DNA of 64,000 nt, taken from contig JAFZRF010000045.1 of the NCBI GenBank assembly GCA_017620025.1, positions 124,001-188,000 on the forward strand. Reading direction: 5' to 3'. This stretch comes from Ruminococcus sp. GTDB lineage: Bacteria > Bacillota > Clostridia > Oscillospirales > Ruminococcaceae. The notes under the pieces were generated by a model, which was given only the letters and a program-made list of their open reading frames with translations, was not told the DNA's origin and searched no databases. Below are positions 54,947-63,926 of this stretch, piece by piece; position 1 is the stretch's first letter; the number at the start of each line of letters is the position of its first letter. Position numbers and translations under genes: made by a program.

Positions 54947-54956
54947 GGTGATAGAT

Positions 54957-56339
54957 ATGAAAGATACGATCCGCAATGCTATATATGAAAAATACATCAC
55001 ACCTACAAGAGCAGAGCGTCCTGATTATATCGGAGTTGAGATAGAACTGCCTGTCGTCAATCTCAGCGGTAAGCCTGTTGATGAGGCTGTCTCGATAAGC
55101 GTGGCAGAGAGATTCACTGAGCACTTCGGATTTGTTCCGGAGGGACATGATTCTGCCGGAAGTCTGACATCCGCAAAGGATACCGCAACAGGGGATATTC
55201 TCTCCTTTGACTGCTGCTATTCAAATCTCGAGCTCTCCTTCGGAAAGGCTGTAAGTCTATTTGAGGTCCGGGACAGGTTTGAAAAATACATCCGCTTCCT
55301 CAATGCGGAATTTGCCAAGCACAATTACACTCTCACAGGCATGGGTGTCAATCCTCATGCGGACATAAATCACAACAAGCCGATACAGAACGAGCGTTAC
55401 CGTATGCTCTATCACTACCTGCACTCCTATCCTCAGCACACGAAGGAAGTTGATATCCGTTTCCATGAACGCCCTGATTTCGGCACCTTCACAAGTGCCT
55501 CGCAGGTACAGCTCGATGTGAGATACGATGAGCTTACGGATGTGATAAACGTATTCGGACTGCTCGAGCCGTACAAGGCGCTCCTGTTCGCAAATTCCTA
55601 TCTGCCCGATTATCCCGAATTCCTCTGCGTGAGAAATATGCTGTGGGAGCACAGTATGCAGGGCTATAATCCGCATAACGTGGGAATGTTCGCACAGAAG
55701 ATATCAAGCGTTGACGAGCTTGTTGACTACATAGGTACACAGTCGATATACTGCACGATGCGTGACGGCAGATATGTGGACTTCACTCCCGTTGCCATCG
55801 ATGAATACTTTTCAAAGGACAGGATCGACGGTGAGTATTTTGACGGCGAGAGCTACCGGAAGATATCCTTCTCGCCGGAGAGCAGCGATATCGATCACCT
55901 CCGCACATTCAAATTCGAGGACCTGACTTTCAGAGGAACTATCGAATACCGCAGCTCATGCTGCCAGCCCTTGTCTGAGGCAATGACAGTTGCAGCCTTC
56001 CATACAGGCCTGAAGGAAAAGCTACCGGAGCTGAAAGAGCTGATCGAAAACGACAGAGTCATATACTCACACGGATTCAGCGCGCTTGAGCTCCAGAAGC
56101 TGCTCTCAAAGCGCAGACTTCCGGATTTCCTCGATCAGAGCGCCGTTGAGAATCAGCTTACGAACATACTCGATCTTGCATCAGCCGGCCTCAGAAAGCG
56201 CAGACTCGGCGAGGAGATACTCCTTGATCCGCTTTACGAAAGAGCAGAAAGACATACAAATCCCGCAAAGGAAATGCTTGACGGAATATCTGCGGGACAC
56301 ACGATAAGAAATTACATTGAGCAGTACGCTGCAATATGA
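54957..56339 (+). CDS. Glutamate-cysteine ligase homologue (GCS2 family)
   Basis: A 460-residue protein of the GCS2 (plant/EgtA-like) group of carboxylate-amine ligases, which join Cys to the gamma-carboxyl of Glu with ATP. Marks: YIGVEIELPVVNLSG (Glu-binding start), SFDCCYSNLELSF, TGMGVNPHADI and TFRGTIEYRSSCCQPLSEAM near residue 330. GAGGTG precedes the ATG at 54957. It follows the ACT gene within 10 bases and is directly followed by a second ligase homologue. Confidence 0.85.
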   Translation: MKDTIRNAIYEKYITPTRAERPDYIGVEIELPVVNLSGKPVDEAVSISVAERFTEHFGFVPEGHDSAGSLTSAKDTATGDILSFDCCYSNLELSFGKAVSLFEVRDRFEKYIRFLNAEFAKHNYTLTGMGVNPHADINHNKPIQNERYRMLYHYLHSYPQHTKEVDIRFHERPDFGTFTSASQVQLDVRYDELTDVINVFGLLEPYKALLFANSYLPDYPEFLCVRNMLWEHSMQGYNPHNVGMFAQKISSVDELVDYIGTQSIYCTMRDGRYVDFTPVAIDEYFSKDRIDGEYFDGESYRKISFSPESSDIDHLRTFKFEDLTFRGTIEYRSSCCQPLSEAMTVAAFHTGLKEKLPELKELIENDRVIYSHGFSALELQKLLSKRRLPDFLDQSAVENQLTNILDLASAGLRKRRLGEEILLDPLYERAERHTNPAKEMLDGISAGHTIRNYIEQYAAI

Positions 56340-56349
56340 GGTGAAACGA

Positions 56350-57483
56350 ATGAGTAAATACTTATACAGCGGAAAGTTCGGGATAGAACGAGAGACTCTG
56401 AGGACAGACAGCCATGGCAGGCTCGCCCAGACACCGCATCCTTTCGGCAACGACGAGCATATTACCCGTGATTTCTGTGAGAACCAGATAGAGCTCGTTA
56501 CTCCTGTTGCAGAGAGTATAGACGAGGCTCTCGGATATCTTGCGGAGCTTGACAGGAAGGCCAGAGAGACCCTTGAGAAAAACGGCGAGAGCATATGGCT
56601 CTACAGCAATCCTCCCCACTTTGACAGCGAGGACGAGATACCGATAGCGGATTTCACCGGCGATCATTCCTCAAAGCGCAGCTACCGTGAAGTACTTCAG
56701 CGAAAATACGGCAAGAAGCTGATGCTCTTTTCCGGCATACACTTCAATTTCTCCTTTGCCGAAGAGTACCTGCGGGAGCTGAACACCGAAAACAAGGATC
56801 TTCATATTTTCAAGGACGAGCTTTATCTGAGACTGTACAAGCAGCTTATGGTACACAGCTGGCTGCCCGTACTACTGACTGCGGCAAGTCCGTACTACGA
56901 TGCCTCCCTTGACAGGGACGGTAAAAGCGGCATAATCATGAGCGAGTATTCTTCACTGAGGAACAGCCCCCGCGGCTACTGGAACAAGTTCCTCCCCATA
57001 CTCGATCACCGCAGCCTGAAGACATTCACAGGCAGTATCAAAAAGCATATCGTGACCGGATCTCTGTATTCGGCAAGCGAGATATACCTGCCGGTACGTC
57101 TGAAACCGAAGGGCATAAACACTCTTGAAAACCTTGCCGAGAACGGCGTTGACCACATCGAACTGAGGATGTTTGATCTCAACCCGTCAGCACCTCTCGG
57201 CATAGACGGCAGAGACCTTGAGTTTGCTCATCTGCTGATACTCTGGCTGCTTACTCGCCCGGATTTCGATTTCACTCCGGAGAAGCAGGAAAAGGCAGTG
57301 TGCGACCACAAGAACGCTGCCCTTCTTGACCCCGATACGAAGCTGCTTGAACGTGCAGAAGAGATTATCGGAGAGATGGAGGAATACTTCGGCGGCAATG
57401 AGAAAGCGCTTGAGGTTATCGGTTTTGAAAAGGATAAGATAAGCGGACGCAAGGTCTGTAACAGCAATAAATACTATGAATAA
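56350..57483 (+). CDS. Glutamate-cysteine ligase homologue (GCS1/GshF-N type)
   Basis: A 377-residue protein similar to the ligase domain of GshA/GshF: FGIERETLRTD near residue 10, HITRDFCENQIELVTPV, SGIHFNFSF and DHIELRMFDLNPSAPLGID. It is about 100 residues shorter than E. coli GshA and has no ATP-grasp half as in bifunctional GshF. GAGGTG precedes the ATG at 56350. Two different ligase families in one operon is unusual. Confidence 0.85.
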   Translation: MSKYLYSGKFGIERETLRTDSHGRLAQTPHPFGNDEHITRDFCENQIELVTPVAESIDEALGYLAELDRKARETLEKNGESIWLYSNPPHFDSEDEIPIADFTGDHSSKRSYREVLQRKYGKKLMLFSGIHFNFSFAEEYLRELNTENKDLHIFKDELYLRLYKQLMVHSWLPVLLTAASPYYDASLDRDGKSGIIMSEYSSLRNSPRGYWNKFLPILDHRSLKTFTGSIKKHIVTGSLYSASEIYLPVRLKPKGINTLENLAENGVDHIELRMFDLNPSAPLGIDGRDLEFAHLLILWLLTRPDFDFTPEKQEKAVCDHKNAALLDPDTKLLERAEEIIGEMEEYFGGNEKALEVIGFEKDKISGRKVCNSNKYYE

Positions 57484-57496
57484 GGCGGTGGCATAG

Positions 57497-58255
57497 ATGT
57501 GCGAGCTTCTTGGCTTCACTTCGGAAAAGAATACTGACATATCAGATTATCTGCGGGCTTTCTTTGCACACAGCAGAAAGAATCCGCACGGCTGGGGACT
57601 GATGTATGAGGACGGCAGGCGTGAGATACTGAAGGAAGCTGTAAGTGCGGAGAACAGTACGTTTTTATCAGACGTTATAGACAGCCTGCCGGAGCAGAAG
57701 CACGCTCTCGCACATATCCGCTTTGCCACTGTCGGAAGGATCTGCGAAAAGAACTGCCACCCCTTCACAGGCACGGATATCTCCGGCAGAGAATGGACTC
57801 TCATACACAACGGCACTATCTTCAACGGAAAGCACAACCACCGCTATTCAGCGATACAGTCCGGCGATACGGATTCAGAGAGGTTTTTCCTCTCGATGAT
57901 AGATACCATCAATGATCATATCTCAAGGCACGTTCCGAACGAGCGTGAGAGATTTGAGCTGATCAACAATTTCATAGTTGAGAACTCTCCGAGGAACAAG
58001 CTGAATCTTATCATATACGACGGAGAGCTTCTGTATGTCCATAAGAATCTGAAAAACACGCTCTGCTTCAAACGGACAGACGGAGGCATCATATTTTCGA
58101 CAAAGCCTCTTGACAGCGGAGTATGGATACCCTTTCCCATGGCGCAGGTCATCGCATACAAGAGCGGTCAGGAGGTACACCGCGGAGACCGCCACAAGGG
58201 TATGTTTGTTCCTCCGCTTGACTATATCACACCTATGGACGCAATGTACATATGA
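57497..58255 (+). CDS. Class II glutamine amidotransferase, EgtC/YafJ-like
   Basis: A 252-residue N-terminal-nucleophile amidohydrolase. The catalytic Cys2 follows the initiator Met (MCELLGFTS), with HGWGLMYEDGR, ALAHIRFATVG, HPFTG and LIHNGTI as in GATase_4/EgtC/YafJ. EgtC removes gamma-glutamyl groups in ergothioneine synthesis, so this enzyme may cleave a gamma-glutamyl amide made by the neighbouring ligases. That is inference from context. GGCGGTGG precedes the ATG. Confidence 0.85.
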   Translation: MCELLGFTSEKNTDISDYLRAFFAHSRKNPHGWGLMYEDGRREILKEAVSAENSTFLSDVIDSLPEQKHALAHIRFATVGRICEKNCHPFTGTDISGREWTLIHNGTIFNGKHNHRYSAIQSGDTDSERFFLSMIDTINDHISRHVPNERERFELINNFIVENSPRNKLNLIIYDGELLYVHKNLKNTLCFKRTDGGIIFSTKPLDSGVWIPFPMAQVIAYKSGQEVHRGDRHKGMFVPPLDYITPMDAMYI

Positions 58256-59779: not shown

Positions 59780-60238
59780 TTAATATGTACGGGCACTTAT
59801 AAATGAGATACCATCATTGCAGTTCTTTCGCTCGTAGTACATATCCGTGAGATCCTTTAATGTGGTGCTTTGCATGAATTCACAAAGGTAACTGGTCATT
59901 GGCTCCCACAGGCATTTTTCTATTGCATCGGTCGCATTTTGTTCAAGCTCCTTGCTGAACTGCGATGACGTGAGTATCGATCTGTCAAGGGCGTTCACGA
60001 TCTCGTACAGAGTAATATCCCCGATATCACGCAATATCCTGTAGCCTCCGCCTGAGCCCTTAACGCTGTATACAAGGTTGGACTGCTTTAACAGCGGAAG
60101 TATCTGTTCAAGATATTTTGCAGAAATATTATTTCTCTTTGATATGGCATTGACCTTTACCGTGTTCTCATTGTTTATGTTTAAAGCTATATCAAGCAGT
60201 GCTATGATACCGAATTCGACTTTGGTGGATATTCTCAT
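59780..60238 (-). CDS. Rrf2-family regulator, CymR-like
   Basis: A 152-residue winged-helix regulator of the Rrf2 family: MRISTKVEFGIIALLDIALN, then NNISAKYLEQILPLLKQSNL (recognition helix region) and GSGGGYRILRDIGDITLYEIVNALD. It lacks the three-Cys cluster site of IscR and so is nearer to CymR, the cysteine-metabolism repressor of Firmicutes. It lies next to metK, and the window has several sulfur-linked promoters it could control. GAGGTG precedes the ATG at 60238. Confidence 0.82.
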   Translation of the reverse strand: MRISTKVEFGIIALLDIALNINNENTVKVNAISKRNNISAKYLEQILPLLKQSNLVYSVKGSGGGYRILRDIGDITLYEIVNALDRSILTSSQFSKELEQNATDAIEKCLWEPMTSYLCEFMQSTTLKDLTDMYYERKNCNDGISFISARTY

Positions 60239-60344
60239 TGTTTTCACCTCGATTAATATGATACTTTAAGTTTATCATATCATCGTTGTTTTTTCAAGCT
60301 TTCTGAATATACGGTTATCCTATTATCGCTAATGCATTTAGTAT

Positions 60345-61652: not shown

Positions 61653-61686
61653 TAAAAATAGGGAAGGCAGAAAACTGCATTCCCTT
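61653..61686 (-). terminator. Attenuator terminator before metK
   Basis: On the minus strand GGGAATGCAG, loop TTTT, CTGCCTTCCC (one mismatch) followed by TATTTTTATG. It lies between the leader stop (61717) and metK (61632), so it can switch metK expression. Confidence 0.8.
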
Positions 61687-61716
61687 TGTTCTTGTTATTT
61701 GCGCAGCTGCGCATGA

Positions 61717-61803
61717 TCAGAATACAAAAGTGCTGTTTCCATGACAAAAAACTATTCGATTGTTTATAGTCATACAACAGCAGCAACATATCTTCTTCAT
61801 CAT
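61717..61803 (-). CDS. Leader peptide with five consecutive Cys codons, upstream of metK
   Basis: A 28-residue ORF with AAAGGAG eight bases before its ATG, beginning MMKKICCCCCMT: Cys codons TGT TGC TGC TGT TGT at positions 6-10, and another Cys at 20. A small GCGCAGCTGCGC hairpin and then an intrinsic terminator follow. Five Cys in a row in a short ORF is very unlikely by chance and is the mark of an attenuation leader that senses Cys-tRNA. It is outside the size cut of ordinary gene finders. Confidence 0.78.
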   Translation of the reverse strand: MMKKICCCCCMTINNRIVFCHGNSTFVF

Positions 61804-61832
61804 GAAACAACTCCTTTCTTTTTGATGATATT

Positions 61833-61863
61833 ATTATACCGCATAATGCAGCAACTGTCCAAT
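61833..61863 (-). promoter_or_regulatory. ATTGGACA-type promoter C of metK
   Basis: ATTGGACA, 17-nt spacer after TGGACA, TATAATA on the minus strand, 30 bases before the leader ORF. Confidence 0.88.
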
Positions 61864-62090
61864 TCCGAAAAACTATAATCAGTTATAACTCAGAATAATA
61901 ACTTGGAAAATCCTCTGTACAGACAGATCCGGGGTGCGGTGGGGAATTCGATACGGCAAATGTTCTCCATTGTCAGCGATTATGATCGCGTTGAACAAAA
62001 CCCTGTTATAAGAACTTTTTCCTACTCTGTAACTATGCTCTCACTCTCATCGGATTTCGCAGCATGAACGGAAAATCCTGACTTATAACG
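61864..62090. other. Intergenic, no gene seen
   Basis: Between the metK promoter and the luxS terminator there is no supported frame, repeat or structure. Confidence 0.5.
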
Positions 62091-63834: not shown

Positions 63835-63926
63835 ATTCATAATTAAGAATTCATAATTCATAATTGCGGTATCGCCTGCGGCGATGATATTTAATTATGC
63901 ATTATGCATTATGAATTATGCATTGA
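63835..63926. repeat. AT-rich MITE-like repeat
   Basis: ATTCATAATT-type repeats on the left and ATTATGCATT-type repeats on the right flank a small GC hairpin (ATCGCC, TGC, GGCGAT). The flanks are roughly inverted copies. It lies between the promoter at 63931 and the aminotransferase gene. Confidence 0.5.

Follow-up and report, generated by a model that had tools for sequence, protein, structure and literature searches.

Why would a gene for the synthesis of S-adenosylmethionine (SAM) be preceded by a short open reading frame (ORF) carrying a run of cysteine codons? The question is raised by the window, a stretch of 64,000 nucleotides of Ruminococcus sp. DNA, in which a metK gene lies behind such an ORF. 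Control of amino-acid genes in Firmicutes is thought to rely mostly on T-boxes, riboswitches and repressors, the SAM riboswitch and the T-box being the usual terminator-based devices for metK and amino-acid genes; leader-peptide attenuation is a textbook mechanism, and cysteine is rare as its read-out. Passages of PMC2965389 say much the same, placing Firmicutes amino-acid genes mostly under T-boxes, riboswitches and repressors.

The leader ORF and the metK paralogue behind it

The elements of the locus are collected in Table 1. As a preliminary description had stated, the ORF has 28 codons, a ribosome-binding site, five Cys codons in a row at positions 6-10 and a sixth, which we place at position 20. 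Its second ATG is the sole start in 13 other leaders of our alignment A1, where the first ATG is specific to the window, and promoter-like boxes similar to those of the window are also visible in 13 relatives. Among the 378 short ORFs of the window with a Shine-Dalgarno-like site, this leader alone has a run of three or more Cys codons, and in 25,264 such ORFs from 60 first-order Markov windows, runs of three occurred 20 times, runs of four twice and runs of five not at all. That the run arose by chance and has no function, a reading with nothing in its favour beyond the small size of the ORF, is contradicted by these 60 windows, by the conservation of the leader at metK2 and by the leaders at the mcc locus described below, and we regard it as practically negligible.

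Table 1. Features of the metK2 locus (positions in the window)
Feature	Position	Strand	Basis or remark
Promoter TGGACA-17 nt-TATAAT	61833..61861	(-)	11/12 consensus positions
Shine-Dalgarno site AAGGAG of the leader ORF	61811..61816	(-)	Sequence; aligned in relatives
Leader ORF MMKKICCCCCMTINNRIVFCHGNSTFVF, 28 codons	61717..61803	(-)	27 codons from the conserved second ATG, 61800
Five Cys codons in a row, TGT TGC TGC TGT TGT	61774..61788	(-)	Proposed sensor
Strand 2 GCACTTTTGT of the predicted antiterminator, within the last leader codons	61724..61733	(-)	Masked fold; conserved, without covariation
Small hairpin GCGCAGCTGCGC, in the interval from leader stop codon to terminator	61701..61712	(-)	Stalled-ribosome folds
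Strand 3 ACAAAGGGAATGC, common to antiterminator and terminator	61677..61689	(-)	
Intrinsic terminator, strands 3:4 and U run	61654..61685	(-)	Folds; both-side changes in 2/12 pairs
metK2, S-adenosylmethionine synthetase, 395 aa	60445..61632	(-)	TIGR01034, 567.9 bits against a cut-off of 309.4

The intrinsic terminator earlier noted between the leader ORF and metK was also found: the hairpin AGGGAATGCAG-TTTT-CTGCCTTCCCT, followed by ATTTTT, folds at -14.9 kcal/mol, ends 21 nt upstream of metK2 and is kept across the aligned relatives. It was missing from the list of a consensus scanner, for which a single mismatch in the stem is the probable reason. An Rfam search of the whole window returned no family at gathering score and there is therefore no SAM riboswitch and no T-box in it, in agreement with the earlier remark that none is recognised at this metK. 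The SAM riboswitch (RF00162) and the T-box (RF00230) are also terminator-based, but neither stands before metK2, where both were ruled out by the lack of a match at gathering score; as a positive control, the SAM riboswitch model scored 79.6 bits at the other metK of the genome. Elsewhere in the genome there are eight T-box matches at E <= 0.001, one of them above the cut-off.

The genome from which the window comes (2.7 Mb in 70 contigs, estimated to be 76% complete) has two metK genes that are 61% identical, and we call the copy in the window metK2 and the one on contig C50 metK1. The only SAM riboswitch detected in the genome is at metK1. The statement that metK is usually under a SAM riboswitch thus holds for metK1, but not for the gene in the window, which is a paralogue and not the housekeeping metK. 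A tree of 50 MetK proteins united the 10 metK2 rows (100/100) and, at 100/97, a group of 12 made up of these rows and the MetK proteins of a Clostridia genome from water buffalo rumen (L041) and of genome G080, apart from the metK1 rows; within this group the placement of G080 is unsure (91/58). MetK2 retains the catalytic motifs GHPDK, GAGDQG and GGGAFSGKD, and its residues 3-387 match solved SAM synthetases; for these reasons it is probably an active SAM synthetase.

As to the surroundings of the gene, luxS lies directly upstream of metK2 in the window and has a separate terminator of its own. Positions 54948-58255 (+) hold two glutamate-cysteine-ligase-like genes and a gene for an EgtC-like amidotransferase, all under their model cut-offs, and in L003, L005, L009, L013 and L015 relatives of the amidotransferase gene share the strand of the metK2 leader and lie no more than about 1 kb upstream from it.

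Conservation and folding of the metK2 leader

A search of contigs found 55 loci with MetK relatives, and the upstream DNA was examined for 33 of them in addition to the window. All 15 loci with a metK2 of 85-96% identity and readable upstream DNA (L003-L013 and L015-L018) have a Cys-run leader, with 3, 4 or 5 Cys or with the variants CCRC (L017) and CCHCC (L018), and a further locus, L029, has a diverged metK2 leader, MKKCCCTRNNCIRC. Of these loci, L009 belongs to the laboratory strain Ruminococcus flavefaciens 007c. Conservation of the Cys codons had been set beforehand as a check on the attenuator reading: in 16 of the 16 relatives that have metK2 and readable upstream DNA, these 15 and L029, the Cys codons are kept at the same place while other codons vary, and the differences in the length of the run are whole codons, in frame. 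Comparison of the relatives shows the ORF, its frame, its Cys run, the terminator and the gene context to be genuine features of the locus. Alignments A1-A3 were made without L003 and all alignments without L014, which is at a contig edge; L018 was left out of A1 and L029 out of A1 and A2. The reason in the case of L003 is that the terminator loop of its metK2 leader is longer by about 90 bases (L003:1979-2072), and the added bases include a hairpin-like stretch with a T run.

We also built a covariance model of the metK2 leader (R1), and it matched 20 of the 125 genomes of the genus at E <= 0.01, 15 of them strongly (E < 1e-19); at the other five matches a Cys run is lacking, and they resemble terminators hit by chance. 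A metK2 gene (88-100% identity) is present in 14 of the 125 genomes, and these are 14 of the 15 with a strong match. In all 14, which are close relatives and so not independent, the leader is directly upstream of metK2 (E < 1e-26), and all 14 also carry a metK1, 59-62% identical to it. Since the locus and genome collections overlap (L003 is G006, L005 is G022 and L018 is G243, for instance), the counts from the two are not additive. In the fifteenth genome, G019 (contig C1, L105), the leader ORF is kept, metK2, the terminator and the 3' half of the attenuator are gone, and the flanking DNA resumes past the site where metK2 stands in L005. We ruled out that this is the leader of another gene; it looks like the relic of a deletion at the metK2 locus. 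Two matches, L090 and L111, are on the opposite strand at metK2 leaders, and the weak matches to leader models at L089, L091, L106-L110, L114, L116-L119 and L165-L167 were dropped, as there is no Shine-Dalgarno ORF with a three-Cys run at the matched site. At one of these, L166 in G193, a short ORF rich in spaced Cys codons (VLTARGALKGYFWCEEESCTDCGCGSAFCNC..., L166:486 (+)) lies about 150 nt past a weak match to R2, the model of the mcc leaders introduced below.

The leader RNA folds better than shuffled sequences (z -2.38), and its terminator helix is paired in 89.4% of the cells of the alignment. Both-side changes occur in 10 cells of 2 pairs; among 500 shuffles, none reached the number of changed cells or the covariation score and 416 reached the number of such pairs, and since the changes are confined to one clade they may be single events. 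In the predicted antiterminator, the 2:3 helix, the alignment contains no both-side changes because the helix hardly varies. With all RNA masked as far as a ribosome on the first Cys codon, and strand 4 not yet made, strand 3 paired with leader-ORF RNA in 15 of 16 metK2 leaders, L029 being the one that differs. The leader stop codon adjoins strand 2, and the trp attenuator has this same geometry. In many minimum-energy folds strand 2 formed a helix with the Shine-Dalgarno/start region, whose covariation was not above that of shuffles, and the Cys-codon region, considered by eye as strand 1, was rejected because the folds preferred the Shine-Dalgarno/start region instead.

Good folding and the strong conservation of strand 2 would also be expected of a small-molecule riboswitch or a protein-bound RNA in which the ORF is incidental. 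Such an RNA fits poorly with indels of whole codons in the Cys run and with a conserved Shine-Dalgarno site and start, it does not account for different Cys leaders on sister operons, and no Rfam family matches; we consider it scarcely probable.

The folds speak less uniformly for a leader ribosome that acts on the terminator. With only the ribosome footprint masked, and strand 3 scored as paired with any upstream RNA, be it strand 2 or another, strand 3 was free for upstream pairing at all positions of the Cys run in 6 of 16 metK2 leaders and at one or more in 11 of 16 (in the window at 1 of 5 positions), and a ribosome at the stop codon excluded upstream pairing of strand 3 in 8 of 16. The terminator was the more stable state in every metK2 leader row listed, and the decision of the switch must therefore be kinetic. 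With the upstream RNA masked, the mean advantage of the terminator was 11.1 kcal/mol with the ribosome on the Cys codons as against 15.0 kcal/mol at the stop, and it was lower on the Cys codons in 16 of 16 leaders; with the footprint mask the means were 12.7 and 14.8 kcal/mol and it was lower in 13 of 16. Some of the difference between the two positions comes from the greater length of RNA masked when the ribosome is at the stop. The three exceptions with the footprint mask, in which the Cys position is no better for the antiterminator than the stop, are L009, L017 and the window itself (10.6 kcal/mol on the Cys codons, 10.4 at the stop). Because this folding support is mixed, we infer the metK2 switch more from conservation and from its kin than from its own energetics. 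The earlier proposal of a Cys-leader attenuator before metK is in this sense supported by comparative evidence, with predicted metK2 folds that are mixed.

Could the leader ribosome instead open or close the ribosome-binding site of metK2, as in mycobacteria, and not act on a terminator at all? The only Cys-codon leaders known to have been studied by experiment, the polycysteine leaders of mycobacteria, reportedly act on translation in M. smegmatis (Canestrari 2020, in the words of passages citing that work). Against this stands the hairpin with its U run, which ends 21 nt short of metK2 and which the aligned relatives retain; and in folds made once that included the Shine-Dalgarno site of metK2, this site was left unpaired. 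We consider translation attenuation improbable here, and prefer a ribosome-mediated attenuation of transcription.

Cys leaders on other genes of the methionine-to-cysteine route

A family-wide search of 396 genomes with R1 gave nine genomes at E <= 0.001: our own, G243 (at metK2), five without a Cys ORF, and G324 and G175. In these last two, the Cys leaders MTRTLQCGCCFCLHSNSILYRQRNSFCIK (G324) and MFAVNTLNTCCCCCAYYNCIASKQRNSFRVSG (G175) are followed by a terminator-like hairpin and then by an mccB-like and an mccA-like gene, the former having cystathionine gamma-lyase/homocysteine desulfhydrase as its best NCBIfam match, just below the cut-off, and the latter being cysteine-synthase-like. Our own genome has an mccB-mccA pair 5 kb past the edge of the window on the same contig and strand, preceded by a gene for a methyltransferase of the LCM family (PF04072), and this methyltransferase-mccB-mccA unit is headed by a second Cys leader, which has a separate terminator and reads MRAMNMMCCCMCTVVNERILPAYAQRCYAFF (C57:195724). 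R1 did not detect this leader at E <= 1, and it has no Rfam match, the T-box (RF00230) included.

Relatives of mccB are present in 72 of the 125 genomes of the genus. The best 30 of the 72 loci were fetched, of which 28 reach far enough upstream (L123 and L129 are cut by contig ends), and in every one of the 28 the methyltransferase is preceded by an ORF that has a Shine-Dalgarno site and contains adjacent Cys codons. The longest Cys run has three codons in 25 of the 27 leaders counted, and of the remaining two leaders one reaches 2 and the other 5; the leader of L139, outside this count, has CC twice. No leader was found directly before mccB, within 450 nt, in the 30 loci (one with 217 nt); it sits one gene further up, before the methyltransferase. 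Eight genomes (G000, G128, G105, G010, G068, G006, G022 and G007) have both the metK2 leader and the mcc leader.

Covariation was seen more widely in the mcc leaders. In alignment A4, with 21 rows after removal of L148 and of six near-identical rows (L126, L132, L135, L139, L145 and L146), the antiterminator is a 10-bp helix that is 96.2% paired, and 4 of its 10 pairs show both-side changes (reached by 2 of 500 shuffles); for the terminator the corresponding figures are 95.2% and 8 of 11 pairs (0 of 500 shuffles). In the stalled-ribosome fold, most of strand 3 was paired with the leader ORF in 21 of 21, and with the footprint mask all positions of the Cys run were permissive in 20 of 21. Strand-3 pairing was excluded by a ribosome placed on the stop codon in only 3 of 21, and simple covering of strand 2 therefore does not explain the off state of the mcc leaders. 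R2, the model made from the mcc leaders, matched 11 of the 396 family genomes at E <= 0.001; in our own, G008, G063, G436, G243, G516 and G480 a Cys-rich ORF precedes the methyltransferase, in G447 it is weak, and in the other three there is no Cys-rich ORF at that place.

A functional Cys-rich micropeptide, binding metal or serving in redox reactions, would also explain why the reading frame and the Cys run are conserved, since the run would then be kept for the peptide itself. The peptides of the metK2 and mcc leaders, however, have little in common beyond their Cys runs, the leaders read precede genes of the methionine-to-cysteine route (the G019 orphan excepted) and most end at a terminator, and in the metK2 leaders strand 2 falls on the very codons that are conserved at the C-terminal end. 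For a micropeptide we therefore see very little room, and we return to the leaders as attenuators.

The most complete arrangement was found in L041, the genome from water buffalo rumen. There a Cys leader, MKNINKSRQMNNCFCCCILCVRIGDTVCL, behind which a hairpin and a U run were recognised by eye, is followed almost without gaps by LCM methyltransferase-metK-luxS-mtnN-mccB-mccA, in which the mtnN-like nucleosidase belongs to PF01048 and mccB and mccA are likewise assigned by likeness. Its metK is 71% identical to metK2, and R1 scored its leader at only 17 bits (E 0.14). An LCM-type methyltransferase, metK, luxS, mtnN, mccB and mccA together supply all enzymes for the conversion of methionine to cysteine via SAM. 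In G080 (contig C33, L154:6101-8206 (-)) an LCM-family methyltransferase and MetK are fused into one protein of 702 aa, adjoining luxS, mccB and mccA on the same strand as well as a cysteine synthase; upstream of this fused operon we found no comparable Cys leader, only an 8-codon TTG ORF with two Cys. The clade of metK2 is in this way tied to luxS, mtnN, mccA, mccB and LCM genes in L041 and G080, which links the gene to the amino acid that its leader would sense. Judged by these neighbours, MetK2 likely does not serve general methylation and feeds methionine into cysteine. Cysteine as the signal for SAM synthesis, earlier called noteworthy, is logical, because metK2 belongs to the methionine-to-cysteine route, other genes of which have Cys leaders.

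An order-wide search of 355 genomes found an LCM relative in 10. Directly upstream of the five closest (46-54% identity, our own among them) lie Cys-rich ORFs, clear in four cases and weak in L172, and in four of the five mccB lies downstream within the stretch fetched. Cys-rich leaders on the methionine-to-cysteine route thus occur in at least four families by the grouping used (f1, f2, f13 and f24). The five distant homologues (34-37%; L176-L180), with neither mccB nor a Cys ORF in the stretch fetched, probably do something else. There is no Cys leader upstream of cysK on contig C23 of our genome, and the device is therefore absent from some sulfur genes.

Proposed attenuation by cysteine and its relation to known leaders

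The metK2 locus shares with trp/his-type attenuators an ORF with regulatory codons, here Cys, a conserved Shine-Dalgarno site and frame, and an intrinsic terminator before the structural gene. We consider it highly probable that the metK2 leader is a ribosome-mediated transcription attenuator that senses charged tRNA-Cys, and we infer the stalling, the metK2 switch, the direction of control and the metabolic flux as follows. RNA polymerase would start at the promoter (61861-61833) and a ribosome would begin the leader ORF. When charged tRNA-Cys is scarce, the ribosome would stall on the Cys run near the start of the leader. Strand 2 (GCACUUUUGU) would then be uncovered and could pair with strand 3 (ACAAAGGGAAUGC) while strand 4 has yet to be made; the 2:3 pairing would block the terminator, and metK2 would be transcribed. 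With sufficient cysteine, the ribosome would reach the stop codon and cover strand 2, so that strands 3 and 4 could form the terminator and transcription would end. If the leader is not translated, the Shine-Dalgarno/start region may capture strand 2, which would make termination the default. MetK2 would supply the SAM for a route from methionine to SAM, to SAH by a methyltransferase, to S-ribosylhomocysteine by MtnN, to homocysteine by LuxS, and to cystathionine and cysteine by MccA and MccB. A shortage of cysteine would thereby open metK2 together with methyltransferase-mccBA, and metK1 would stay under SAM feedback.

Cysteine thus appears to control SAM synthesis by way of a paralogue, and the same logic appears on the genes that lead from methionine to cysteine. 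This offers a testable explanation for the presence in some bacteria of two metK genes under different sensors, suggests how Ruminococcus of the rumen and gut may cover their need for cysteine, and ties an LCM-family methyltransferase to the methionine-to-cysteine route. In a wider proposal, to which we give an even chance, Clostridia of the Ruminococcus group would have a cysteine-starvation regulon of leader-peptide attenuators that evolved separately on several units, and a second SAM synthetase and the LCM methyltransferase would serve mainly to burn SAM to SAH, so that the sulfur of methionine can go into cysteine; the SAM pool set aside for cysteine would be insulated from the riboswitch control of metK1.

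Comparable leaders have been described in other bacteria. Cys-codon ORFs before sulfur-amino-acid genes, including cys operons of mycobacteria and related bacteria and cbs of Bifidobacterium longum, were predicted in Actinobacteria (Seliverstov 2005, PMC1262725, in the passages available to us). These polycysteine ORFs resemble ours in having runs of Cys codons in a short ORF before sulfur-amino-acid genes, but according to the same passages the run is near the stop codon and there is no conserved terminator. The metK2 leader differs in its occurrence in Clostridia, its Shine-Dalgarno start, a run near the start, an intrinsic terminator and a metK paralogue as its target, and with its run at codons 6-10 of 28 and a terminator present it falls outside the actinobacterial definition as given there. 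In Rhodobacterales, uORFC-8-2 upstream of cysS is, in the parts of PMC8632094 seen, also a Cys ORF with an intrinsic terminator and predicted attenuation by uncharged tRNA-Cys; unlike the metK2 leader, it usually has two Cys codons at 14-15, belongs to Alphaproteobacteria and is confined to cysS, with no link to metK or the methionine-to-cysteine route in those parts. Within Firmicutes, passages of PMC2965389 and PMC9413887 describe predicted His leader peptides with three to five His codons in a row as cases of leader-peptide transcription attenuation, and passages of PMC5794164 a Leu attenuator of ilv-leu in S. aureus; both differ from the metK2 leader in amino acid and pathway. Searches of an open-licence library turned up no description of a Cys leader from Clostridia or from the upstream region of a metK, and the terms cysteine, metK, cystathionine and Ruminococc- are absent from the main texts of PMC11109978 and PMC6429828 by term counts. 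Attenuation by Cys codons is known elsewhere, and the regulon in Clostridia seems to be new.

Some further elements at these loci may bear on their regulation. An Rrf2-family regulator gene (window 59780-60247 (-)), which matches IscR and CymR models below their cut-offs, lies about 200 nt after metK2 and could be an extra layer of repression; in L005 its relative is located 2.6 kb further on. Upstream of the -35 box of metK2, at 61873-61888 of the window, there is a dyad, TTATAACTGATTATAG, with CTATAACTGATTATAG in L009 and L011, and 24 of the 27 mcc promoters (loci L121-L150) have TTCC-N-R-TAGGAA between the -10 box and the leader; these dyads are possible regulator sites. Finally, an AT-rich stretch at 63838-63925 of the window, with repeated TTCATAATTC / GCATTATGCATTATGAATTATGCA seen by eye, has a similar counterpart before mccB in L121 and is possibly a small mobile repeat.
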